Origin: Ruminococcus sp.
GTDB lineage: Bacteria > Bacillota > Clostridia > Oscillospirales > Ruminococcaceae
Direction of reading: 5' to 3'
Assembly: GCA_017622635.1 (NCBI GenBank)
Contig: JAGAQS010000010.1
Coordinates: 1 to 24,367, forward strand
Length of the DNA stretch: 24,367 bases
Shown here piece after piece: positions 1,448-24,221 of the stretch. Position 1 is the first letter of the stretch. Each line of letters starts with the position of its first letter. The notes under the pieces were generated by a model. It searched no databases and had not been told where the DNA came from. It saw only the letters and a list, made by a program, of their open reading frames with translations. Position numbers and translations under genes: made by a program.

Positions 1448-2620
1448 TTATTTTATCTGTTCAAGACAGGTATTGTAAATTTCGTCGTATGTCATATTTT
1501 CGTCTCTTTCAATGTAATCATTGTCTGCGGAGTAGATTTTGTTTGCGGGGTAAGTACCTATAAACTTTGAATCATCATGGGATATAGCTGCCGCATAAGT
1601 GCTGACACCGTCTTTGATAATCATAAAGTAGTCATAATCTTTATATTCAGGGAAAAAGTTTTCAAGTTCTTTTTCCAACTGACTTATAAAATCGTCGCTT
1701 ACATTGTAGTTTTTGCCTGTGTCGGAAGATATAATGCAGTCAGGTATTTCAACGCCCTGTTCGTCAAGCGTTACAAGTGCGGAATTGGCTGCTTTATAAA
1801 TTGTTGCAGTAATTGAATTTATACTTGTCTGTTTTGACTTCTTTACATATCCCATCATAGAAAGGTCGGTTTTCCAGCCCTCACCGTCAATATAGTACAT
1901 GATAAGTTCCTGTTCATAGGTATCCTTTTCACCGTTTTCGTTTTCGGATTCAAACTTACAGTTGACAATATATCCGTCACCGATTTCAAAGTACGGTTTT
2001 ATCTCCGAAATGTCACCAATATCGGACATATATTTTTCAAGTTCTTCGTAATCTATGTTTTCACTGCCGTTTTCTTCTATATAGTCACTTATAACCTGAA
2101 GTCCGCCATACATTTCATTAATAGCTTCGGTGTAGTATTCGTCTAAAGGCTCTTCGGAAATAATTTCAACAAGACGTATACTTTCATTTGATGTATCATA
2201 CATCTCGTTAGTATACTCATCAAGTGAAACGCCATTCATTTCCGCCATAAGTTCAAAAACATTGTAATATCTGTCGGGAATTGTTAGTTTAATCATTCCC
2301 TCAACGTCCTTGTTGTTCATGCACTCCAAAAGTTTTTCTATTGCCTCTTCATAAGAACCGTCGGCGGACAGATTTTCAGACGGTTCGTCTGTATTTTCCG
2401 TTTCGCTGATTTCTTCTTCTGTGATTTCATCTGTTTCGGATTCAACGGTTTCTTCCGTTGTTTCCTCTGTTACTTCTTCTGTAGTCACTTCTTCTGTGAT
2501 TTCCTCAGAAAAGGACGACACGGAAGATTCTTCCGAAACTTCATCTGCCACGTCGTTTCCGCATGATGCAAATGAACACAATACCGCCGTAAATGTGAGT
2601 AATGCAATAAATTTTTTCAT
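1448..2620 (-). CDS. Secreted lipoprotein with acidic Thr/Glu-rich spacer (paralogue A)
   Basis: A 390-residue protein of unknown function. It has a lipoprotein signal peptide with the lipobox FASC (lipidated Cys20), then a Glu/Thr/Ser-rich low-complexity spacer (about residues 23-85) that likely reaches through the cell wall. The globular part begins near SYEEAIEKLLECMNNKDVE and includes YYIDGEGWKTD. A late segment, TIYKAANSALVTLDEQGVEIP, resembles the pilin-like extracellular modules seen in Ruminococcus surface proteins (resemblance only). A ribosome site AAGAGG precedes the ATG. It lies 18 bp after a paralogue with the same layout (same signal peptide, shared GEGWK motif, matching C-terminus with YDEIYNTCLEQIK versus YEEDYQICLDKIK), so the two form a tandem duplication and probably one transcript. 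Confidence 0.85.
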   Translation of the reverse strand: MKKFIALLTFTAVLCSFASCGNDVADEVSEESSVSSFSEEITEEVTTEEVTEETTEETVESETDEITEEEISETENTDEPSENLSADGSYEEAIEKLLECMNNKDVEGMIKLTIPDRYYNVFELMAEMNGVSLDEYTNEMYDTSNESIRLVEIISEEPLDEYYTEAINEMYGGLQVISDYIEENGSENIDYEELEKYMSDIGDISEIKPYFEIGDGYIVNCKFESENENGEKDTYEQELIMYYIDGEGWKTDLSMMGYVKKSKQTSINSITATIYKAANSALVTLDEQGVEIPDCIISSDTGKNYNVSDDFISQLEKELENFFPEYKDYDYFMIIKDGVSTYAAAISHDDSKFIGTYPANKIYSADNDYIERDENMTYDEIYNTCLEQIK

Positions 2621-2638
2621 AATAAATGACCTCTTTTT

Positions 2639-3763
2639 CTATTTTATTTTATCAAGACAAATCTGATAATCTTCTTCATATGAAAGTATAACACGTCTAT
2701 CTTCTGTATATTTATACTTGTCGGGAAACGAACTGAAAGACTTTGTTTTTCCCTCGTACTCACCGCTTACATTTGAAATCTCACCGTTTTCTACAACAAT
2801 AAAGTATTGAAGATTGGGCCTTTTCTGATAATATTCACTTATACCGTTTACAAAATTGTCCGCAAACTCACTGCTTACATTGTAATTTTTACTGCTGTCT
2901 GACGAAACAATAAAATTTTCGGATTCTGTTCCGATTTCGGAAAGAACGGTTTCCGCTGAATTATATATATATTCGGTTTCCTGACACACCGCCTCTTTTT
3001 CATTTTCATATATCTGAGGTATAAGCCAGAAGTCTATTTTCCAGCCCTCACCGTCGATATAATAGAGTATAAATTCCCAGTCTATAAGTGGTTCATAATC
3101 CTCCCACGGACAATTATCAGTAGGTTCACGGGAAAGCGTACAGGTGAGTTTTACAGCGTTTTCCACATGAAAATATGTATCTGGCTGATACTGTGCCTCT
3201 GATACGATATTTTTCAGTTCATCTGTATTTTCAGCACCGTTCTGTTCAATATATTTACCTATAGTCTGAAATTGTCCGTAGTTGTCGTCAAACAGGGATA
3301 TATAATCCTGTGCAAGAGGTTCTGCCGAGTCAATACTGAAAAGCCTGAAATTTTTAAAGGGGTCTGCCGGCTCTTCTAAAAATTGGAAACACGGTGGTTC
3401 AAGTATTTCTTTTTCGTAAAGTAATTTTAGAGTATCACAGTATTTGTCGGGATAGGATACTTTCAATATACCGTCTATGTCTTCATTGACTGAACATTCA
3501 AAGAATTTGTCCAATACTTCCTGATATTCGGCAGTTTCTTCTGTTGTTTCAACGGTGGTTTCTTCTTCCATTACTTCTTCTGTGATAGTTTCTTCTTCCG
3601 TAGTCATTTCTTCGGTGGTTGTTTCTTCTGTAGTTGTTTCTTCTTCCGTTACTTCCTCCGTAACAGAAGATTCTTCAGAAATTTCTTCGGCAACGTCGTT
3701 TCCGCACGATACAAACGAACATAATATTGCCGTAAAGGCAAATACAGAAATAAATTTTTTCAT
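2639..3763 (-). CDS. Secreted lipoprotein with acidic Thr/Glu-rich spacer (paralogue B)
   Basis: A 374-residue lipoprotein of unknown function and first gene of the tandem pair. The start is ATG 3763, which has AAAGAGG at good spacing and gives a signal peptide almost identical to that of its partner (lipobox FVSC, Cys20); the longer frame from 3814 would place charged residues before it. The spacer is rich in ETTTE/EEVTEE-type repeats (about residues 25-75). The globular domain shares the SVNEDIDGILK, YYIDGEGWKID and ISSD.GKNYNVS-like segments with paralogue A but has diverged considerably, for example by a Cys/Pro-containing insert around LTCTLSREPTDNCPW. It is transcribed divergently from the xylanase gene. 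A role in surface sensing or binding is possible, but nothing proves it. Confidence 0.85.
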   Translation of the reverse strand: MKKFISVFAFTAILCSFVSCGNDVAEEISEESSVTEEVTEEETTTEETTTEEMTTEEETITEEVMEEETTVETTEETAEYQEVLDKFFECSVNEDIDGILKVSYPDKYCDTLKLLYEKEILEPPCFQFLEEPADPFKNFRLFSIDSAEPLAQDYISLFDDNYGQFQTIGKYIEQNGAENTDELKNIVSEAQYQPDTYFHVENAVKLTCTLSREPTDNCPWEDYEPLIDWEFILYYIDGEGWKIDFWLIPQIYENEKEAVCQETEYIYNSAETVLSEIGTESENFIVSSDSSKNYNVSSEFADNFVNGISEYYQKRPNLQYFIVVENGEISNVSGEYEGKTKSFSSFPDKYKYTEDRRVILSYEEDYQICLDKIK

Positions 3764-3791
3764 AATAATAAACCTCTTTGGATTTTTTTTA

Positions 3792-3820
3792 ATTATATCA
3801 TATCTATATAACATTTACAA
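3792..3820 (-). promoter_or_regulatory. Sigma-A-like promoter of the lipoprotein pair
   Basis: On the minus strand, TTGTAA and TATAAT are separated by exactly 17 bases and lie about 30 bp upstream of the start of the first lipoprotein gene. Confidence 0.6.
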
Positions 3821-3966: not shown

Positions 3967-5949
3967 ATGAAAAAAAAGCATTTCAAAAACCTGCTTGCAG
4001 GTACAGTCAGTGCAGTTATGATGTGTTCAACCGCGTCGGCTGTATATGCAGAGGATTCTTCAACAGGTACGGCAACAGAAGGAAAGATTATTTATTCATC
4101 TGATTTTGAGGACGGCGATGTTTCGGCTTTTTCGGCAAGAAATGAGAATGATACAACTGTTATTTCAGCAAGTGAGGATAATGCAGTAAGCGGTAAGAAA
4201 TCACTTTGTGCAAGCGGTCGCTCTCAGTCTTGGAACGGTCCGGCTTTCAGTCTTGAAGGTAAGTGTCAGTCCGGTAAAGCTTATCTTTTGAGCTGTAAGG
4301 TGATGGGACAATACTATACAAGTAATACTTTAAGTATGCAGTATACAGATTCCAAAGGTAAAGAACATTATGACAATTTACAGGCAGTTAACGGTAATGG
4401 CTGGCAGGAAATAAAAGACCTTAAAATTACGTTCGCTGACGGTGCTACAAATGTTCAGTTATATTTTGAGGGTGGGTCAGATAATATCTATATCGATGAT
4501 TTTGTACTCAAGGAAGCTCCCGTTCATGATATTCAGCAGGATATCGCTTCCCTTAAAGACGTATACAGCGGATATTTCAAAGTAGGTACTGCGGTGACTG
4601 CCAAAGAACTTTCTCCGCAGTCTACCAAAGACCTGATTTTGAAACAATTCAACAGCATAACAGCAGGCAACGAGCTTAAACCTGATGCTATTCTTGACAA
4701 AGATGCAAGCCTTGCACTCGCACAGTCAGGCGACGACGAAAATCCACAGGTAAGTCTTGAAAGTGCAAGGTCTATACTTAACTTTGCACGGGACAACAAT
4801 ATTCCCGTAAGAGGACACGTTCTTGTATGGCACCAGCAGACTCCGGAATGGTTCTTCAAAGAAAACTATGACGAAAACGGTGACTGGGTTTCAAAGGAAA
4901 AAATGCTTGTCCGTATGGAAAACTACATAAAGAACGTTTTCGATGCTGTAAAGACTGAATATCCTGATGTTGATTTTTACGCATGGGACGTTGTAAACGA
5001 ATGTCTTAAAGATAACGGCTCACCGCGTGACCCCGGATTCCCTGCACAGAGCAATAATTATCAGTCTTCTCCATGGGTTCAGATTTTCGGTGACAATTCA
5101 TTCATAAAACCTGCTTTTGAGTTTGCAAAGAAATATGCTCCTGAGGGAACCAAGCTTTATTATAACGACTATAACGAATATATGGACAAAAAAGATGCTA
5201 TTGTAGCACTGACCGAAGAAATAAATTCCGACGGTCACTATATAGACGGCATAGGTATGCAGTCTCATCTTGATGCACGTTCAGGCAGTGATGCTTTTCC
5301 GTCCGCAAGTATGTATAAAAAGGCACTTGACCAGTTCTGTGCAACAGGTCTTGATGTTCAGATTACAGAACTTGACGCAACAGTAAACGGAAACGATGAG
5401 GAGAGTTTCAAGAAGCAGGCACAGTATTACAGCGATATTATGGACGCTATCGTTGAACACAAGGACGATATATCCGCCGTTGTATTCTGGGGAACAACCG
5501 ACGACCAGAGCTGGAGAGCTTCGGGCTATCCGCTTCTCTTCAATGAGGATTACTCCGCAAAAGAGTCTTTCTATTCAATAGTTGACGACATTGAACCTCT
5601 GGAAACTACCACAACTACAACAAACTCTACAGAATCATCTACTACGACAACAACTACTACAACCACTACAGGTACAACAGACCCCACAAATACACCTGCA
5701 CGTTTATATGGTGATGCTGACTCAGACGGAGAAGTAAATATAAATGATGCTGTACTTATAATGCAGTCAATCGCAAATCCCGATAAATATCATCTTTCCG
5801 AAGACGGCAAACTTTGTGCCGATACTGTTGACAACGGTGGCGGTATCACAAACGCTGATGCCTTAGCAATTCAGTATGTTGAATCAAAGACAATAACACC
5901 CGCCGATTTCCCGATTACTTCGGCACAGCTTGACGAACTCAGTAAATAA
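3967..5949 (+). CDS. Cellulosomal endo-1,4-beta-xylanase (CBM22-GH10-dockerin)
   Basis: A 660-residue secreted modular enzyme that cleaves internal beta-1,4 bonds of xylan. Modules in order: signal peptide (1 to about 28, ending SAVYA); a CBM22-like xylan-binding domain (about 38-185, with SGKKSLCASGRSQSW and the terminal DNIYIDDFVLKE strand); and a GH10 barrel (about 190-545). Catalytic motifs are present: the acid/base Glu345 in WDVVNE and the nucleophile Glu468 in VQITELD, plus GNELKPD, GHVLVWHQQTPEW and the late WGTTDDQSW. A Thr-rich linker (546-577) leads to a C-terminal type I dockerin (579-660) with repeats GDADSDGEVNINDA and ADTVDNGGGITNADA followed by LAIQ. The dockerin should anchor the enzyme to a cohesin scaffoldin. 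The second calcium loop is longer and glycine-rich, as in R. flavefaciens dockerins. The gene appears monocistronic, with its own promoter and terminator. Confidence 0.96.
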   Translation: MKKKHFKNLLAGTVSAVMMCSTASAVYAEDSSTGTATEGKIIYSSDFEDGDVSAFSARNENDTTVISASEDNAVSGKKSLCASGRSQSWNGPAFSLEGKCQSGKAYLLSCKVMGQYYTSNTLSMQYTDSKGKEHYDNLQAVNGNGWQEIKDLKITFADGATNVQLYFEGGSDNIYIDDFVLKEAPVHDIQQDIASLKDVYSGYFKVGTAVTAKELSPQSTKDLILKQFNSITAGNELKPDAILDKDASLALAQSGDDENPQVSLESARSILNFARDNNIPVRGHVLVWHQQTPEWFFKENYDENGDWVSKEKMLVRMENYIKNVFDAVKTEYPDVDFYAWDVVNECLKDNGSPRDPGFPAQSNNYQSSPWVQIFGDNSFIKPAFEFAKKYAPEGTKLYYNDYNEYMDKKDAIVALTEEINSDGHYIDGIGMQSHLDARSGSDAFPSASMYKKALDQFCATGLDVQITELDATVNGNDEESFKKQAQYYSDIMDAIVEHKDDISAVVFWGTTDDQSWRASGYPLLFNEDYSAKESFYSIVDDIEPLETTTTTTNSTESSTTTTTTTTTTGTTDPTNTPARLYGDADSDGEVNINDAVLIMQSIANPDKYHLSEDGKLCADTVDNGGGITNADALAIQYVESKTITPADFPITSAQLDELSK

Positions 5950-16298: not shown

Positions 16299-16325
16299 TT
16301 AGCACTCCCACTCTTTGAGTGCTAA
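16299..16325 (-). promoter_or_regulatory. CIRCE operator (HrcA binding site)
   Basis: The sequence TTAGCACTC-N9-GAGTGCTAA is a perfect match to the CIRCE consensus. It begins 4 bp downstream of the -10 and so covers the transcription start, where bound HrcA blocks RNA polymerase until heat stress titrates GroEL away. Confidence 0.98.
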
Positions 16326-16358: not shown

Positions 16359-16451
16359 GCGTTTTATTCATTTTCGTCCTTTTTTACTAAAACTGATATA
16401 TGCATCATCATAAATATGGTAATTTTTAAATAAAAATATCCGTCACAAAGA

Positions 16452-16481
16452 ACAGCTCCCCCGTTGTAAAGAGAGAGCTGT
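16452..16481 (-). terminator. Likely terminator of the transport operon
   Basis: ACAGCTC / GAGCTGT pair across a 16-base loop about 50 bp after the stop of the solute-binding protein gene. The following minus-strand sequence, TTCTTTGTG then ATTTTTATTT, is only moderately T-rich, so termination may be incomplete. Confidence 0.5.
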
Positions 16482-16533
16482 CCCCTGTAAAAAAGGAGGT
16501 TAATATATATTAAATCAAGATTTCATAATTAAA

Positions 16534-18960
16534 TCAGGACTGTTCACTGATGAGAATACCTACACGGCTCTGAATCTTGTCAATAGCCTGCTGTGAATCC
16601 GCTTCACCCTTGAAATACTTTGTTACTTCTTCAACGACTATTTCTCTTACATCGTCCGAGAAACCACCTGTCACCCTGTCGGCTTTTTTTATATAATCAA
16701 CAACAAAGTCCTTCTGTTCCTTTGTAAGAGGTTTTACATTTATTTCCTTGCCGTTTATAAAATAGGTGTTATCATATTCTACTTTTTTTCCGTTCTCGTC
16801 AAGATAGTATGGCTTTGACATGGATTCTTCGGCTTTTTTTTCAAATGCTGATACAAGTGACGGAAGTTCAGAGGAGTACTGATTGTTTGTCTGATACTCC
16901 TCAGTGAAAAATTCCTTTATGAATGCCCAGCAGGCATCTTTTGACTGTGAACTTTCAAGAACAGCCATAGAGTTGTTGAATGAAAGTATTGCACCGTTTC
17001 CGTCATTTGACGGTATACCGACAAGTGTTATATCATCGTTGAAATAAGCGTCTTTTTCTACTCCGTATTCTGTAAATGTATAGAGGTTTACAGTATCCAG
17101 CAGAGCTTTGTCGTTGAGTAATAATGTATCCTGCTCATTCCAGTAAGCTTCTATTTCGTCCTGAGAAGCGTTTTCCCAGTCAATTTCCTCATCTTCGTCG
17201 GGGAACTCATTGCAGAACTCAAGTACCTTTTTGAAATCGTCTGAATCAAAATGACATTCAGCCTTTTCATAGTCAATGAATTTATCCACCATAGAACCGC
17301 ATATCAGCTCAAAAGCTGACTCTTTCGAATTTCCGTAACGGCAAAGCTGCATATCGGGGTGTTCGTGATAAGTGTCAATCATTTCGTCAAGAGTCCAGTT
17401 TTCCTTGTCAAAGAATTTTGTCTTGCACGCCATAGTGGTAACACCGAAAGAAGGTGACAATGAGTAAAGTTTTCCGTCAATTTTGCTTGCACTGAGAACG
17501 TTCGGCATAATATCATCTGCGGACAGGTCAGCGTCTTTTTCAAGATAAGTTGAAAGGTCTGTAAAAGTTCCTTTCGGTGCAAGTTCTGATATCAGGCTGT
17601 AATCATATGTTACAATCATATCGGGGGCATTTCCCGAAACAATGTCCATTTTAAGCTGTTTCGAGGCTGAATTTATCATCTTTTCCTTTTCGTCGTCATA
17701 TTCATCGTACTTGCTGTAATCTGCTATTTTTATTCTGTAGTCTGTATGTGACTTGTTGAAGTCGGTAATTCTGGAAGTAATTGCCGAATCGCTGTAAAGC
17801 ATACCGAGTGTAATTACAGTCTGGTTTGCGAGTTCGTCGGCACTGCGTTTTGTAAGACGTGCAAATCCCGAAGTATTGCTTGTATAGTCCTGCAAATATA
17901 CAATAAAGTCACCGTCGTCAAGACCTATTACGGAACGTACCGAATCGCCTGTAATATCGGAATCAATCCAGTTTATTATTTCAACGGGTTTTTTGTCCTT
18001 GTCAATACCGTAAAGACCTGCCTGAGTACTTGTAAATAAAGTATATTCGCCTGTACCCGTACTAATGCTGTTTATACCTGATATTTCAGAATTTTCAAGA
18101 CTTACGTTCACACTGTCGTCGGAAAATTTCTTTGCCTCTATATCAATATACTCCAGTGCTTCACCGTTACTGCCGTAACCTGCACATACAACGTTACCGT
18201 CAGAATCATTTCCGAAATAATTTATCCAGTGTGTATCACTGCCCACATCAATTTTACCTGTGATTTCACCGTCCTCTTTAAGAATACAGTAAGTTTCTTC
18301 TTCTCCGCTGAGTGACAGAATAATGTTTCCGTCCGAGCAGGCTGTTATATCTCTTACGGATATACGCATATCTTCTGAATCTTCGCTGTATTCTTCAACG
18401 TTTGTAACAGGATTTTCAGAAATTATTTTACCGTCCGAACCGAGCTTATAGAGTGTATATGAATATTCAGCCGCTTTATTCATGGCTTCATAGTCAAAAT
18501 TTTTATAGTCAAAATCAGGGTCGTCATAGTCGGGAATTTTGAAGTCACCATAGTCAATAATTGTCAGAAGTGCATATATAGAGCCGTCGGGAGCAACTGT
18601 AGTCCTGATATAGGACTGAGAATTTTCAGGTTTCTGGAAATCAAGTGAAATTTCATTGAAACCGCTGAAATCCACGTCGGTAAGATAAAGCTTTGTGTTG
18701 CCGTTACTGTCACCGCCTGTTATAAGAACCTGAGAAGTACCTTTTATAAGGAACATCTGTTCAACGTATTCGGCAGGGATTTCCGTTTCTATATCAATTG
18801 AACTGTACGAATTTGTTATTGTTTCCTTTGCGGTCTGTTCAGCTTGTGAATTTGAACTGTTTTCACCGTCATTTTTCTTTTCTCCGCATGAATATGCCGA
18901 AAATACCATTGCAACGGCAAGTACTCCTGTTACTGAACGTGTGATAAGTGAATTTTTCAT
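16534..18960 (-). CDS. Lipoprotein: propeller-like domain fused to ABC solute-binding protein
   Basis: An 808-residue lipoprotein, about twice the usual length of a sugar-binding protein. The signal peptide ends in AYSC (Cys25), slightly off the usual lipobox because of the Tyr, and is followed by a polar Ser/Asn/Glu linker. Residues ~45-390 contain repeated beta-rich blades of the form [APDGSIYALLTI / ACSDGNIILSLSG / DSDGNVVCAGYG / DDGDFIVYLQDY], consistent with a beta-propeller. From about residue 390 a family 1 extracellular solute-binding domain follows: TLGMLYSDSAITSRITDFNKSH, VSGNAPDMIVTYD, DGKLYSLSPSFGVTT, KDACWAFIKEFFTEEY and the terminal AIDKIQSRVGILISEQ. It is the last gene of the transport operon and very likely delivers substrate to the two permeases. 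What the propeller binds is unknown. Confidence 0.85.
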   Translation of the reverse strand: MKNSLITRSVTGVLAVAMVFSAYSCGEKKNDGENSSNSQAEQTAKETITNSYSSIDIETEIPAEYVEQMFLIKGTSQVLITGGDSNGNTKLYLTDVDFSGFNEISLDFQKPENSQSYIRTTVAPDGSIYALLTIIDYGDFKIPDYDDPDFDYKNFDYEAMNKAAEYSYTLYKLGSDGKIISENPVTNVEEYSEDSEDMRISVRDITACSDGNIILSLSGEEETYCILKEDGEITGKIDVGSDTHWINYFGNDSDGNVVCAGYGSNGEALEYIDIEAKKFSDDSVNVSLENSEISGINSISTGTGEYTLFTSTQAGLYGIDKDKKPVEIINWIDSDITGDSVRSVIGLDDGDFIVYLQDYTSNTSGFARLTKRSADELANQTVITLGMLYSDSAITSRITDFNKSHTDYRIKIADYSKYDEYDDEKEKMINSASKQLKMDIVSGNAPDMIVTYDYSLISELAPKGTFTDLSTYLEKDADLSADDIMPNVLSASKIDGKLYSLSPSFGVTTMACKTKFFDKENWTLDEMIDTYHEHPDMQLCRYGNSKESAFELICGSMVDKFIDYEKAECHFDSDDFKKVLEFCNEFPDEDEEIDWENASQDEIEAYWNEQDTLLLNDKALLDTVNLYTFTEYGVEKDAYFNDDITLVGIPSNDGNGAILSFNNSMAVLESSQSKDACWAFIKEFFTEEYQTNNQYSSELPSLVSAFEKKAEESMSKPYYLDENGKKVEYDNTYFINGKEINVKPLTKEQKDFVVDYIKKADRVTGGFSDDVREIVVEEVTKYFKGEADSQQAIDKIQSRVGILISEQS

Positions 18961-18992
18961 AATATACTAACCTCTTTCTGTATTTATTTATA

Positions 18993-20138
18993 TTATACTT
19001 TCTTTTGTCTGAATTTTTCTTTTATATCTCTCCGCCGTCTGTCTATGAATATTGACACAGCACGCATGACAGCGGATTTCTTTTTCTTTAAGAATTTTAT
19101 CAGTAAAATTATAAGCCATATAACCGTAACAACGGGAACGGCAAAAATCAACCGTCTGAAAAAATATATAAACGACAACTTAAATTCAACAAGGCGTGAC
19201 GCATTTTCCCAGTACGGATAATTTATACTTTTCTTTACAATGGCATAGTCTGATATTTTCTTAAAAGCCTTTGCCCTTGCCGACGGTGAAAAACGTACAC
19301 TGTTCTTTACTATTGAACACTTGTCCTTGTATTCTTCCGAAAACTGTGTCTTTACTGCATTGTACGCAAAATTTTCAACGGGGTCGGGCAGTACCGTTTC
19401 ATAACAGGTTATGCCCTTAAAACCCGTTACAACAGGTGTATCAGTAATATCTTCGGCAGTAATTTCAGCAGTAGTTTCCGAACCGTCCGAAAGCATTGAA
19501 AGACTTGACGCACCGTCATATGATATGTATATTTTCGGAAGTTTTCCGGCACAGTGTTTTTCGGGTTTTGTGTCGGGAATTTCGGTAACGCCCGAAATGT
19601 AGAATTTCACACCGTTTATATAAAGGTTCATTCCGCTTACTTCATACGAACCATACAGCGACCACGCAAGATTTTTGTCAATAACCGCACCGTCCTGCAT
19701 TAAATCATTATCACCGAAAAATGCACCGTTCACAAGTTCAAGGTTTCGGAAAAGAAAGAAGTCTCCGCCTACTGCCGTAAGTTCCGCATCACTTTTTCCA
19801 ATCAAATCGCCTTTCACCGTAACCGTACCCACTGACGAACTGTAAGCATCTGCAAAAGGAAGTTTCCCCTCCTCCACGGAAAAAGATGCATTCTGCAATT
19901 CTTTTATAAGACCTGCACGGACTGCGTTGAGTGAATCGGTATCAAAACCCGAATCATCTGTAAAAAACGTGCTTACCTGTGCAAAATGTTCACTGCTGTC
20001 ATTTTTCCAGCGGTCAGCCGTATAGTTATACTGCTGTGACTTTGCCATAGAGTTCCCGACGATTGTAAGTATACATATCACCGTTACCGCAACAGCATTT
20101 ACAGCTGTTATAACTGCGTGTTTTATTCTGAATTTCAT
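18993..20138 (-). CDS. MacB/FtsX-like extracytoplasmic domain protein with two membrane helices
   Basis: A 381-residue protein with an N-terminal membrane helix (about 6-28), a ~290-residue extracytoplasmic domain and one or two C-terminal helices (LSFIYFFRRLIFAVPVVTVIWLIILLIKFL) followed by a very basic tail. The outer domain has the pattern of the MacB periplasmic core domain (FFLFRNLELVNGAFFGDNDLMQDGAVIDKNLAWSLYGS, then NLYINGVKFYISGV). True MacB/FtsX permeases have four helices and partner with an ATPase; both the extra helices and the ATPase are missing here. The start is ATG 20138 with GGTGG at good spacing; an alternative GTG at 20147 adds three residues. It follows the HlyD-like gene by 13 bp, as in efflux operons where MFP and MacB work together. 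Confidence 0.75.
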   Translation of the reverse strand: MKFRIKHAVITAVNAVAVTVICILTIVGNSMAKSQQYNYTADRWKNDSSEHFAQVSTFFTDDSGFDTDSLNAVRAGLIKELQNASFSVEEGKLPFADAYSSSVGTVTVKGDLIGKSDAELTAVGGDFFLFRNLELVNGAFFGDNDLMQDGAVIDKNLAWSLYGSYEVSGMNLYINGVKFYISGVTEIPDTKPEKHCAGKLPKIYISYDGASSLSMLSDGSETTAEITAEDITDTPVVTGFKGITCYETVLPDPVENFAYNAVKTQFSEEYKDKCSIVKNSVRFSPSARAKAFKKISDYAIVKKSINYPYWENASRLVEFKLSFIYFFRRLIFAVPVVTVIWLIILLIKFLKKKKSAVMRAVSIFIDRRRRDIKEKFRQKKV

Positions 20139-20151
20139 AAAGACCACCGCC

Positions 20152-21918
20152 TTATTTGTCTTTCATGCGTACCTGGTCTTTAGGTTTTACAGGCTTGCTT
20201 GCCGTCGTTATAACATAATCATTCGGATTTATACCGCCCTGTACCGCACTTGAAATCTCGTCGGAGGCAAGCACCTCAACATCTACCCTTTCGGCAAAAT
20301 ATCTGTTTCCGAGCGGTGAACTTTTTGAATTTACAACAAGAACAAAATAACCATTGTTGTCCTTGTATACCGCACTTTTCGGGACAATAGCGTCATAATT
20401 TCCGCTTCCACACGGAATTGACAGGTCAAGCATAGAACCTGTGCTTACATCACCCGTAACCGAAAATTTAAGTATTCTGTTTTTAGAACCTGCTTTTGTA
20501 TCGTTTTTTATTTCCGTAAGAACCGCTGTAACGTCGCCGTCCCAGTTGTTGACGACTTCCGCTTCAACGCCTTTTTTTATTTTCTTTGCCTTTTCTGCGT
20601 CTACAGTAAGTTCAACGGTGTATCCCTCGTCCGCAATGTCTATCACTGCAAGCGGTGTGTCTGGTACGGTTTCCTCACCCGGCTTGACGTTTATCGCACT
20701 TACTATACCGCTGTACTTTGATTTTATTTCAGTGACAGCGTTTTCCTTTTTTATTTTTTCAATTTTTTTCTTCAGGTTGTCTACTTCTTTTTTCTTTGCC
20801 TCAATTTCAAGGGTGTTTGTCTTACTCAGTAAATCATTTTCATTTTTTGACTTTGTAAGTGATGCAATAAGTTCTTCAAGGGCGTGCTGTTTTGCCTGTA
20901 CGTCTGCGTCGTAATCCTCAATTGACATTCCCGAACCCGTTCCCTGTGTTGCCTCATAACCTGCAATCTGTGCATTAAGATAATCTATATCATTCTGAAT
21001 ACCGGAAAGCTGATTTACAAGGTCATTCCTTATATTGTTTTTTTCCGATTCATATTCATTGCGTGCATTGTTTCTTATTTCTTCCTTTGCATCTGCGTCT
21101 GCTTTGAGTTCGTTTATATCATACAACATATTATTATCTTGTGAAGTTGTTTCTTCTTCGGAAGATTCATCTTTATTTTCCGTATTGTTTCCACCTGCTC
21201 CCGTAAGCATCTGTGAATAGAGGGAATAGGCTGAATTATAGTCGTTTTCGGCATTTGAATAATTATTGTACAGTGATATAAGATTTCCGACATATTCAAC
21301 TGACGCTGTTGAATAATCATTTGTGACTATGGCTGTAATTTTGGACTGTATTTTTTCAAGAATATCTGATTTTCTCATCAGTTCACTTTTATTGCTTGTG
21401 TAGTCATATAAAGCCTGTTCGACAGAACCTGAATTTGCAATTGCATTGTTTCTCTTTGCAATAGCTGTGTTGAGGTCTTCACGTGCGTTTGTTATAGCCT
21501 GATTTTCGGCTGTATAGTCAGCAGGAACACCGAGAAGTGCTTTCTGATATTCAAGCTCAAGGGTAATGAGTTCGGACTGTGCCGTTTCAAGTTCTTCACT
21601 TTCTTCCGTGCCTACCGTAAAAAGCACATCATCTTTCTTTACTTCCTGACCTGTTTTAATCATAACTGTATCAATAGTCTTGTTTCCGTCTGCCTTTACT
21701 TCATAAGACTGATTTGACTCAACCAGACCGCTTCCCCTTACACGTTCCGTCAGTTTTCCCGACATTGCACGTTCAGTTGTGATTTCTGAAAGTGACCTGT
21801 TCATAATTGTATTTGAAAGCAGTGTGAGAACAAGCATGACCGCAAGAAAAATAATAAGTACTGTCTTTATGATTTCTCTTTTTCTGCCTGAACTGTAGTC
21901 TTTTTTTTCTTCGTTCAT
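20152..21918 (-). CDS. HlyD/MacA-type membrane fusion protein with long coiled coil
   Basis: A 588-residue periplasmic-adaptor-type protein: a single N-terminal membrane helix (about 16-37), a first half lipoyl-like domain (ESNQSYEVKADGNKTIDTVMIKTGQEVKKDDVLFTVG), then some 280 residues of predicted coiled-coil hairpin interrupted by a Gly/Asn/Glu-rich loop (TGAGGNNTENKDESSEEETTSQDNN). The second lipoyl half follows (SKYSGIVSAINVKPGEETVPDTPLAVI) with beta-barrel and membrane-proximal domains (YTVELTVDAEKAKKIKKGVEAEV through RVDVEVLASDE). In Gram-positives such proteins usually pair with MacB-like ABC exporters. Here the gene follows a MalF/MalG permease pair by 15 bp and is preceded by AAGGAGA. 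Confidence 0.87.
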   Translation of the reverse strand: MNEEKKDYSSGRKREIIKTVLIIFLAVMLVLTLLSNTIMNRSLSEITTERAMSGKLTERVRGSGLVESNQSYEVKADGNKTIDTVMIKTGQEVKKDDVLFTVGTEESEELETAQSELITLELEYQKALLGVPADYTAENQAITNAREDLNTAIAKRNNAIANSGSVEQALYDYTSNKSELMRKSDILEKIQSKITAIVTNDYSTASVEYVGNLISLYNNYSNAENDYNSAYSLYSQMLTGAGGNNTENKDESSEEETTSQDNNMLYDINELKADADAKEEIRNNARNEYESEKNNIRNDLVNQLSGIQNDIDYLNAQIAGYEATQGTGSGMSIEDYDADVQAKQHALEELIASLTKSKNENDLLSKTNTLEIEAKKKEVDNLKKKIEKIKKENAVTEIKSKYSGIVSAINVKPGEETVPDTPLAVIDIADEGYTVELTVDAEKAKKIKKGVEAEVVNNWDGDVTAVLTEIKNDTKAGSKNRILKFSVTGDVSTGSMLDLSIPCGSGNYDAIVPKSAVYKDNNGYFVLVVNSKSSPLGNRYFAERVDVEVLASDEISSAVQGGINPNDYVITTASKPVKPKDQVRMKDK

Positions 21919-21933
21919 AAAAAAATATCTCCT

Positions 21934-22902
21934 TTATCCTTTTATTCCGCCTGAATACGTAATCCCCTCAACGAGATAATCTTCACCGTAAAGGAACATC
22001 AGTATTGTCGGTATCATATATACAACCCCTACCGCAAACGCAAGACCGATGTCACCCGTGTTAATCTGTGAGAGGAACACTGAAAGCGGGTGCAGTTCTG
22101 AATCTTTCATAAGTATAATAGGCTGTTCAACCATGTTCCAGTAGTCAATAAATACAAGCATACCTATTGAAACCAATGCACTTTTACAAAGCGGAAGAAA
22201 TATCTGTGTCATAATCTGCCATTCGTTCGCACCGTCAAGCTTTGCCGCCTCAACATATGAAACGGGAATCCTACGCATTACCTTTGTAAGCAGAAATACA
22301 CTGAAAGGTGAAAATATTCCAGGCAGAATTATTGCAAGACGCTGTTTCAGTGAAATTATTGTTGTATCTTCCATGATTTTCATTTCAGAAAGCGTTCTCC
22401 ATATACCTGTATTATTTATCTCTTCAAGAAATCCCAGTTTGTCGGCAACAAGATAATTCGGTACAAGTGTTACCTGATACGGCATAAGCATGAGTATTAT
22501 GTAAACAAAGAATATCAGATTTTTCACTTTGCCGTTGTATCTTGAAAATCCGTATGAAGTCAGAACGGCAACGGCAAGCTGAAACAACGTAATCGGTACT
22601 GTGAGTATAACAGAGTTCCAGAATTTGAAAAGATATTCGGGGTTCTTGAAAAGTACTTCCTTATACTGTGAAACGGTTGCCTTGTCGGGAATGAATTTCA
22701 GATTTACATTTTCAGATATGAAAACTTTCTTTTCACTTGACATATTGCCGAGCATTGCACCGTAGTTTGCGGATATTTCACTTGATGTCATGAAAGAATT
22801 GGCTATTGTAAGTACCGTCGGCATTATAAAAAGTATTGCGGAAACACATATAAAAACCGTAAGAATCATATTGAAAACCAATGTTTTCTTTTTTGCTTTC
22901 AT
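21934..22902 (-). CDS. Carbohydrate ABC transporter permease, MalG-type
   Basis: A 322-residue inner-membrane permease with about six helices. The cytoplasmic EAA loop that docks the ATPase is clear: EAAKLDGANEWQIMTQIFLPLCKS. The N-terminal FNMILTVFICVSAILFIMPTVLTIANSF helix and the NSVILTVPITLFQLAVAVLTSYGFSR segment fit the CUT1 MalG family. It is longer than the usual ~280 residues because of two inserts, one after the first helix (MSSEKKVFISENVNLKFIPD region) and one before the EAA loop (GIWRTLSEMKIMEDTT). Its start codon overlaps the stop of the MalF-type gene by one base (TGATG), showing coupling. Confidence 0.9.
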   Translation of the reverse strand: MKAKKKTLVFNMILTVFICVSAILFIMPTVLTIANSFMTSSEISANYGAMLGNMSSEKKVFISENVNLKFIPDKATVSQYKEVLFKNPEYLFKFWNSVILTVPITLFQLAVAVLTSYGFSRYNGKVKNLIFFVYIILMLMPYQVTLVPNYLVADKLGFLEEINNTGIWRTLSEMKIMEDTTIISLKQRLAIILPGIFSPFSVFLLTKVMRRIPVSYVEAAKLDGANEWQIMTQIFLPLCKSALVSIGMLVFIDYWNMVEQPIILMKDSELHPLSVFLSQINTGDIGLAFAVGVVYMIPTILMFLYGEDYLVEGITYSGGIKG

Positions 22903-23789
22903 CAGTTTTCCACATCCTTTCCGAAAATATGCTCCGAAACAAGAAGAACCGCTATTATCACAATCATTACAAGTGAAAACAATACTGCCGCCGCAGACAA
23001 TTTCTGATAGTCAAGGGAGTTAAATGTATTGTTCATGAAATGCTGTAACATATAGAGTCTGTCAACAGGGTAGTCGCCTATAAGCAGGTATATTTCACGG
23101 AAAATCTTGAATGAATTGATAAGCGAAAGTATAAGTACAAAAAGTATTGTCGGGGACAGATAACGCAGTTTTATGTGAAAGAACTGGTACGCCCTGCTTG
23201 CCCCCTCAAGTTCCGCAACTTCAAGTATGTCTTTCGGAATACCTCCCAGTGCCGACATGAAAAGTATCATGTTATAACCTATATTCTTCCACAGAAACAT
23301 AAGTATTATTACAAACATTCCGTGTGAAGATTCAAGCCAGCTGACAGGAGTACCGCCGAATTTCTCGATTATCTGGTTGACCGTTCCGTGATTGTGGAAA
23401 ATTACCTGCCACACCAGTACTACCGAAGCAGTCGGAACCATAAGCGGACTGAGGAAAAATGTCCTGAAAATACTTTTTCCCATGATGTTTCTTTCCAGTA
23501 TTACGGCAAGTCCCAGCGGAATCACCACCGCAAGCGGTACGGCTATCACCGAGAAAAAAGCAGTGTTCTTTGACGCTGTTATGAAAGCGGTGTTTTTCAT
23601 GAGTGCCTTGTAGTTGTCAAGCTGTACAAATTCCTTTGCTATGGTATTGTTTATAAAAGAATAATACACCACTATCCCGAACGGTATCAGAAAAAATATA
23701 AGTACACCCACAAGGCTCGGAACAATACAGGCATTGCTGAAAATCTTTTCACCCCGTCTTCCGCACTGGTTTTTTGAATTTTTCTTCAT
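22902..23789 (-). CDS. Carbohydrate ABC transporter permease, MalF-type
   Basis: A 295-residue inner-membrane permease of the CUT1 family with about six helices. The N-terminal FSNACIVPSLVGVLIFFLIPFGIVVYYSF helix is typical. The EAA loop reads EVAELEGASRAYQFFHIKLRYLSP, in which the usual EAA is EVA and the usual final LP is replaced by YLSP. It is the first gene of the transport operon. The ribosome site AGAAGG is 12 or more bases from the ATG, so initiation may be weak. No ATPase gene is present in this operon; a shared MsmK/MsiK-like ATPase elsewhere would have to power the pair. Confidence 0.9.
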   Translation of the reverse strand: MKKNSKNQCGRRGEKIFSNACIVPSLVGVLIFFLIPFGIVVYYSFINNTIAKEFVQLDNYKALMKNTAFITASKNTAFFSVIAVPLAVVIPLGLAVILERNIMGKSIFRTFFLSPLMVPTASVVLVWQVIFHNHGTVNQIIEKFGGTPVSWLESSHGMFVIILMFLWKNIGYNMILFMSALGGIPKDILEVAELEGASRAYQFFHIKLRYLSPTILFVLILSLINSFKIFREIYLLIGDYPVDRLYMLQHFMNNTFNSLDYQKLSAAAVLFSLVMIVIIAVLLVSEHIFGKDVEN

Positions 23790-23918: not shown

Positions 23919-23966
23919 ACTTTCATTTATACTTTCATTTATACTTTCATTTATACTTTCATATAT
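23919..23966. repeat. Four tandem copies of a 12-bp repeat
   Basis: Three perfect copies of ACTTTCATTTAT are followed by a fourth reading ACTTTCATATAT (minus strand: ATAAATGAAAGT units). An ATGAAA-N5-TTTCAT inverted repeat overlaps the first copy (23910-23926). The array begins roughly 85 bp upstream of the putative -10 of the transport operon. It could be a regulator-binding array or simple slippage. Confidence 0.9.
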
Positions 23967-24221
23967 AAGTGATTATAAAGGACAAAAAAGACGAAGAAAA
24001 TATATATTTTTTTCTTTTTACTTTTATCTGCTTATATTATAATTATTATATCATATATTTCTTTATTTTTAAAGTACAAAATCTTATTATTTTCTTAATG
24101 ATTATATTTTACTGTTTTAATATTTATAATAACTGAAATTCCATTATAAACATTTATAGTATATATTATATTGAAATAAAAGTCAATAGTCTGTTTTAAA
24201 TAAATTTTAATGTCTATATAC
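23967..24221. other. Very AT-rich gene-free spacer
   Basis: No ORF of substance on either strand. The DNA is nearly all A/T with runs of T and A, plausibly bent or easily melted. It contains TATACT close to the palindrome at 24222-24241, possibly the -10 of the XRE gene, but no convincing -35. Confidence 0.5.

Follow-up and report, generated by a model that had tools for sequence, protein, structure and literature searches.

Exporters are the systems in which membrane fusion proteins (MFPs) are known to serve; in the present case an MFP is inherited with importer-type permeases in at least 18 of the family groups read, and the question is what such a combination does. The locus lies in a contig of a gut-type bacterium, Ruminococcus sp. 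(JAGAQS010000010.1, assembly GCA_017622635.1), analysed over the 24,367 nucleotides that are referred to below as the window. An operon of five minus-strand genes at 16534-23789, with intergenic distances of -1, 15, 4 and 32 bp, encodes permeases of the MalF and MalG types, an MFP, a MacB-like protein and a lipoprotein containing a solute-binding protein (SBP). Open reading frames (ORFs) and Pfam matches confirm the preliminary description of this locus, which had reported closely spaced genes of these kinds on one strand. Its reading of them as a hybrid unit is partly supported: judged by comparison of genomes, the unit is real and conserved, and the odd gene set suggests an unexplained kind of uptake or envelope machine. 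Its features are as follows (aa, amino acids; TM, transmembrane).

22902..23789, minus strand: MalF/UgpA-type permease, first gene, 295 aa (BPD_transp_1, E 4.7e-17; module-specific conserved residues)
21934..22902, minus strand: MalG-type permease, 322 aa, with EAA coupling loop, of the module MalG group (BPD_transp_1, E 7e-15; EAA aligned with AlgM2 and SugB; tree)
20152..21918, minus strand: MFP of MacA/HlyD type, 588 aa, with about 295 residues between two lipoyl half-motifs (HlyD_3, E 9.2e-8)
21781..21879, minus strand: MFP residues 14-46, TM helix and juxtamembrane signature (highest conservation in the MFP)
20155..20388, minus strand: MFP residues 511-588, conserved C-terminal, membrane-proximal signature (identity to relatives)
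18993..20147, minus strand: MacB-type ectodomain between two TM helices, 384 aa, without the FtsX-type three-helix C-terminus and without an ATPase (MacB_PCD, E 5.3e-9)
16534..18960, minus strand: lipoprotein, 808 aa, with an N-terminal all-beta domain (about 42-372) and a C-terminal solute-binding protein (about 380-806; SBP_bac_1, E 3e-8)
16443..16490, minus strand: terminator-like hairpin of 20 pairs directly 3′ of the last operon gene (terminator scan)

The GTG start of the MacB-like gene at 20147 is probably three codons too early, because a relative starts at an in-frame ATG. The preliminary description had allowed that separate promoters might split the operon. No terminator-like site was found inside it on the minus strand in the scan, and, since the totals for the window are not above those of shuffled sequences (terminators, 5 found and 6.7 expected; promoters, 32 found and 25.8 expected, standard deviation 5.5), internal promoters are neither demonstrable nor excludable.

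Conservation of the arrangement was followed across genomes. The order malF-malG-MFP-MacB-like-SBP, which the preliminary description had proposed to check, is kept in 13 close Ruminococcus-type loci as far as their contigs reach (L011 starts inside malG and L012 ends inside the SBP gene); hrcA follows the module in 12 of them, and in L005 the contig end cuts there. In a draw of genomes from the family, the window protein as query found 47 of 297 at E<=1e-3, 35 of them at E<=1e-14 and 12 weakly. A group B MalG query found 65 of 391 genomes of the class draw at E<=1e-42, of which 47 were judged module-type, borderline cases included, and 18 generic; the phylum draw, in a table read by eye, gave module-type MalG in 8 of 398 genomes, one of which is the window genome. 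A class draw with profile A1 (61 of 391 at E<=1e-10) mixed window-type with canonical MacB and was left out of the counts.

Window-type MacB-like proteins (>=140 bits) were found at 69 loci, and module MalF and MalG adjoin at 67; in the other two (L062 and L144) the contig itself begins partway through the MFP gene. This set was assembled through the MacB-like protein, which is therefore present by construction, and L006 and L045 are probably one contig. A fairer test of association is provided by 21 new loci obtained from the class search with MalG alone. An MFP match was present in 20 of these, short or weak in four (L301, L302, L303 and L307), and the remaining locus, L296, ends 145 bp after MalG; 13 of the 21 have a MacB-like match.

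Whether MalG has a same-strand MFP match no more than 6.5 kb away depends sharply on its score against the module profile, as counted with the 13 close loci left out. At 200 bits or more it was found in 78 of 79 cases (the exception is L296, at its contig end), at 170-200 bits in 6 of 6 (two of them, L302 and L307, short weak matches), at 145-170 bits in 3 of 6, at 120-145 bits in none of 5, and below 120 bits in 1 of 34, the latter a paralogue beside the L151 module. Altogether, MalG with a nearby MFP match accounts for 88 rows from 83 genomes, one row being that paralogue. No MFP or MacB-like match was found near generic MalG in 32 regions (20, together with L255-L257 and L308-L316). Because of the 69-locus adjacency and the association between MalG score and MFP, the arrangement is more than chance, and the refuting case named in the preliminary description, genes next to the permeases merely by accident, was not found.

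The MalG tree is consistent with this. Among 71 sequences, a single branch parts 40 module from 31 generic proteins with a Shimodaira-Hasegawa-like approximate likelihood ratio (SH-aLRT) value of 87, where the mark set for the tool is 95, and the window type is one group with a value of 99. It comes from a rapid search with no bootstrap, and sequences were taken as module rows by a hidden Markov model score above 150, a choice that favours their grouping. Module MalG loci that carry an MFP fall under at least 18 family labels (f1, f5, f11, f25, f26, f28, f30, f31, f39, f43, f44, f46, f57, f70, f84, f89, f109 and f157), and protein searches with the MacB-like proteins of two relatives name Butyrivibrio in one case and Desulfitobacterium, Desulfosporosinus and relatives in the other. 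The five-gene set is a conserved system, inherited as one unit in many Gram-positive bacteria.

Within this conservation the arrangement varies. An SBP is near in 55 of the 69 loci, sometimes with several in tandem. With F, G, A and B for MalF, MalG, MFP and MacB-like protein, the order is F-G-B-A in L061, L067 and L069 and A-B-F-G in L253, and the SBP comes first in L053 and L063. At L049:1-9619 one module is followed by tandem SBP genes, four complete and one cut, and at L293:4473-15437 two module permease pairs stand in succession, each followed by a MacB-like match.

Both permeases match BPD_transp_1; for MalG the EAA region was also aligned to the solved permeases AlgM2 and SugB, and for MalF the evidence is Pfam together with conserved positions. 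The MFP scores above the cut-off of HlyD_3, reaches 76.6 bits against RND_mfp, under its cut-off of 94.9, and has two matches in the PDB, both MacA (E 0.0014 and 0.0027). Its TM/juxtamembrane part (14-46) has a mean identity to the window protein of 57% in 52 group A proteins, 34% in 9 of group B and 16% in 13 canonical ones, and its C-terminal part (511-588) 52% in 52, 34% in 9 and 20% in 14, respectively. By comparison, the region between the lipoyl halves averages 21% in the same 52 group A proteins, and its length varies, from 171 to 464 residues in group A (median 314) and from 94 to 140 in group B (median 128). Because the TM segment is the best-conserved part of the MFP, an intramembrane contact is suggested. 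Module-specific residues of MalF and MalG are scattered and form runs close to the N-terminus of MalG and, in both permeases, in the final third; together, the signatures of MalF, MalG and MFP are what a dedicated contact would be expected to leave, short of proof.

The MacB-like protein has the MacB periplasmic core domain and lacks the motor. The FtsX-type permease with four TM helices is without counterpart, two TM helices being present in the window model, and most window-type proteins have two hydrophobic segments vs. four in canonical MacB. The earlier label of a MacB-type part therefore stands for the ectodomain and fails for a working MacB. The C-terminal half of the lipoprotein, which the structure comparison mainly covered, has a sugar-SBP fold; the N-terminal domain, for which no Pfam match was found at E<=0.1, looks like a beta-propeller in its predicted strand pattern.

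No ATPase family match was obtained for the five operon proteins with Pfam and a second profile library, so the preliminary statement that the operon has no ATPase is correct as it stands for the window, but what had seemed an anomaly would have an ordinary explanation, because some relatives have a MalK/UgpC-type gene in the operon and the window genome has one as an orphan. In L163-L166 and L169-L171 an ATPase gene directly follows the MacB-like gene, and those tested (L163, L164, L165, L166 and L170) all carry OB_MalK and TOBE_2 and exceed the NCBI UgpC cut-off (5/5). In genome G987 one MalG (found as two halves, E<=1e-5) and one OB_MalK were found, both inside the module. The window genome, which is 69% complete, has a single OB_MalK gene; it is on another contig and passes the UgpC cut-off, and no permeases were recognised around it by the profiles used in 13.8 kb. 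Positions 77, 104, 110 and 154 of the orphan are occupied by D, R, E and K, in the same numbering as MsmX and without alignment; these are the four residues tested by mutation in B. subtilis MsmX (PMC7658222; this and the other papers cited are used in excerpt). Shared orphan ATPases serve CUT1 systems (PMC7658222, PMC11466899). Among 55 module genomes examined, a part of those known, 54 have OB_MalK. The orphan MalK/UgpC-type ATPase is the candidate partner.

With somewhat better than even confidence, we read the module as a CUT1 (MalFGK2-type) ABC importer with a MacAB-derived extracytoplasmic adaptor. A surface lipoprotein SBP, or several in tandem, would hand solute to MalF/MalG, and a MalK/MsmX-type ATPase shared with other importers of the genome would dock on the EAA loops and power uptake. 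The MFP would be anchored to the permease through a specific TM contact, and the MacB-like protein, as a two-TM ectodomain platform without its own motor, would assemble with it on the outer face. A ring or stalk of the two could span the membrane-to-wall zone and position the SBPs or gate access to the permease. We infer a single complex of these proteins, an oligomeric MFP, the orphan ATPase as motor and an inward direction of transport; an oligosaccharide or a similar solute as substrate is the least certain step.

Both halves of this proposal have precedents. CUT1 importers (MalFGK2, UgpABCE or MsmEFGK-type, including those using multitask MsmX or MsmK) share the permease pair, the SBP fold and the MalK/UgpC-type ATPase; they differ in that the 32 generic MalG regions lack MFP and MacB-like matches, and CUT1 importers are not known to have either partner. 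MacAB-TolC, YknWXYZ and Spr0693-0695 share the MacA-type MFP and the MacB ectodomain fold, whereas the window module has no four-TM MacB and its permeases are importer-type. The preliminary description found no obvious use for an MFP in a Gram-positive importer operon, which is too strong, as MFPs with MacB homologues are known there in YknXYZ and Spr0693-0695 (PMC5985334). For the terms searched, and among the open-access papers covered, no importer with MFP and MacB parts is described in a title or abstract start.

One member of the group has already been studied. Over 437 aligned residues the SBP at L288 has the same sequence as PDB 7x0o, CbpC of Clostridium thermocellum; after it, on one strand, come a 283-aa ORF, MalF, MalG, the MFP region, read as two ORFs, and a MacB_PCD protein of 473 aa. 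By this gene content, transporter C of C. thermocellum is a member of the permease-MFP-MacB-like-SBP group. It differs in its SBP (460 aa, without the N-terminal beta domain), in the length of the MacB-like protein and in the ORF between SBP and malF, the start of which, in our own reading, resembles a MoxR-type AAA protein. In this assembly the MFP region (L288:6634-7987) consists of two overlapping ORFs in different frames. The literature, in the excerpts used, describes transporter C as a sugar transporter rather than a MacAB hybrid; an 'acra' gene appears among the transporter clusters in the legend to Fig. 1 of PMC9601137, the text not specifying which cluster. CbpC is treated as a sugar-binding or sugar-transport protein in PMC8303734, PMC3492117, PMC3990059, PMC7471329 and PMC3130646, and is up-regulated on xylose (PMC7471329). 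An earlier study, tabulated in PMC11212667, gives sub-micromolar sugar binding, and Yan et al. 2022 (PMC9601137) report that none of the sugars tested was bound by isothermal titration calorimetry or nuclear magnetic resonance; these binding data conflict. Should the complex form, it would reveal the way in which monoderm bacteria transport or sense large solutes between membrane and wall. It would also account for transporter C, so far unexplained, and for its disputed SBP, and would make a testable system available in a cellulose degrader for which gene inactivation is already published (PMC9601137).

Several observations weigh against an importer with an adaptor of both MFP and MacB-like parts. 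The CbpC pocket is blocked by an extra loop, the sugars tested by Yan et al. did not bind, and the transporter C mutant grows normally on glucose, cellobiose and Avicel (PMC9601137). The same data, with the disputed sugar binding, bear on the preliminary idea of a conduit that would hand oligosaccharides through the wall. Genome G237 has the module, and no OB_MalK was found in it. An MFP match without a recognised MacB-like gene occurs in L286, L299, L301, L302, L303, L306 and L307, although L286 is cut by a contig end and L299 has an unscored 407-aa ORF at the MacB-like site; the MFP matches of L301, L302 and L303 have no Pfam match. No SBP was recognised by profile within 7 kb in 14 of the 69 loci, one of which (L069) is cut by a contig end. 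Support in the MalG tree is moderate, with several long generic branches. Finally, the sugar signal in flanking genes is slight: among 96 scanned of 150 listed flanking proteins, which matched 135 families, GH9, CBM_3 and dockerin each occurred in 2 and GH77 in 1 (counts from the 25 commonest families). Assigning a substrate from flanking genes was dropped, no family being present in more than 5 of the 96.

A bolder formulation, put forward tentatively as less likely than not, is that the modules are a separate class of envelope machine. Through the dedicated TM contact, a MalFGK2 engine would drive a ring of MacA together with a MacB ectodomain that has no motor, the two spanning the Gram-positive periplasm-wall zone, either as a tripartite-style import conduit fed by interchangeable SBPs or as a mechanotransmission device. 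The latter alternative, taken by itself as a transmission or sensing machine and not mainly an importer, would have ATP-driven motion of MalFGK2 pass through the MFP TM helix to the MacB-like and MFP ectodomains, acting on the envelope or reporting ligand binding, with SBPs as sensors. We consider this unlikely, although it accounts for the far better conservation of the TM and membrane-proximal parts of the MFP than of the region between the lipoyl halves, and for the blocked pocket, unbound sugars and absent growth phenotype of the CbpC system. The SpMacB ATPase is stimulated by full-length SpMacA and not by variants without the cytoplasmic region and TM helix (PMC5985334), which also fits. 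Sensor kinases flank both modules of genome G1016, but kinases near the module are few overall: HATPase_c, the commonest flanking family, is found in 5 of 96 proteins, one of which is Hsp90. MalG has moreover kept the import-type EAA loop, and an SBP stands near most modules, in tandem in some. An importer with an adaptor is preferred in our ranking over mechanotransmission, and mechanotransmission over export.

Export or detoxification is less likely still. On this reading the MFP and the MacB-like protein would cooperate with MalFG or a LolD-type ATPase encoded separately to clear molecules from the membrane-wall zone in the manner of YknXYZ. MFP and MacB ectodomain do belong to pump families, and among the relatives read such an ATPase candidate stands near the module in two, L052, where it adjoins a canonical MFP-ATPase-MacB operon, and L078, where an upstream 238-aa ATPase has no OB_MalK or TOBE match. 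The window operon, however, contains no LolD-type ATPase, fused or neighbouring, the FtsX helices needed for coupling to such ATPases are missing from window-type MacB-like proteins, the in-operon ATPases tested are all MalK/UgpC type, and SBPs are near in 55 of the 69 loci. A LolD-type ATPase as partner was disfavoured as the principal explanation by the operon ATPases and by the two-segment MacB-like proteins. Chance neighbourhood, an efflux-pump remnant beside a sugar importer, could point to the window being one genome and to a MacB-like protein without a motor, but is rejected as highly improbable, given the 88 rows, the sharp separation from generic permeases and the permease-only searches, which led to loci again carrying an MFP.

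Some neighbouring genes of relatives were noted as well. The canonical operon of L052 (2258-6113, its MacB with four hydrophobic segments) lies directly upstream of the module. In Butyrivibrio-type loci a protein of about 730-750 aa is encoded just upstream of malF (L148:14272-17338, with similar sizes in L150 and L153), preceded in L148 and L150 by a 301-aa protein; the scan of the L148 pair gave no Pfam match and ABC_tran.

In the window itself, two adjacent minus-strand ORFs of 390 and 391 aa (1448-3814) have no Pfam match at E<=1e-3. An inverted repeat, TTAGCACTC-N9-GAGTGCTAA, lies at 16299-16325 between the module and hrcA and fits the consensus of the CIRCE operator of HrcA. Upstream of malF, an A+T-rich stretch at 23920-23967 contains, by eye, about four tandem copies of the 12-base unit CTTTCATTTATA, the last imperfect. 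A GH10 xylanase-type enzyme with a CBM_4_9 domain is encoded at 3967-5949, on the strand opposite to the module.

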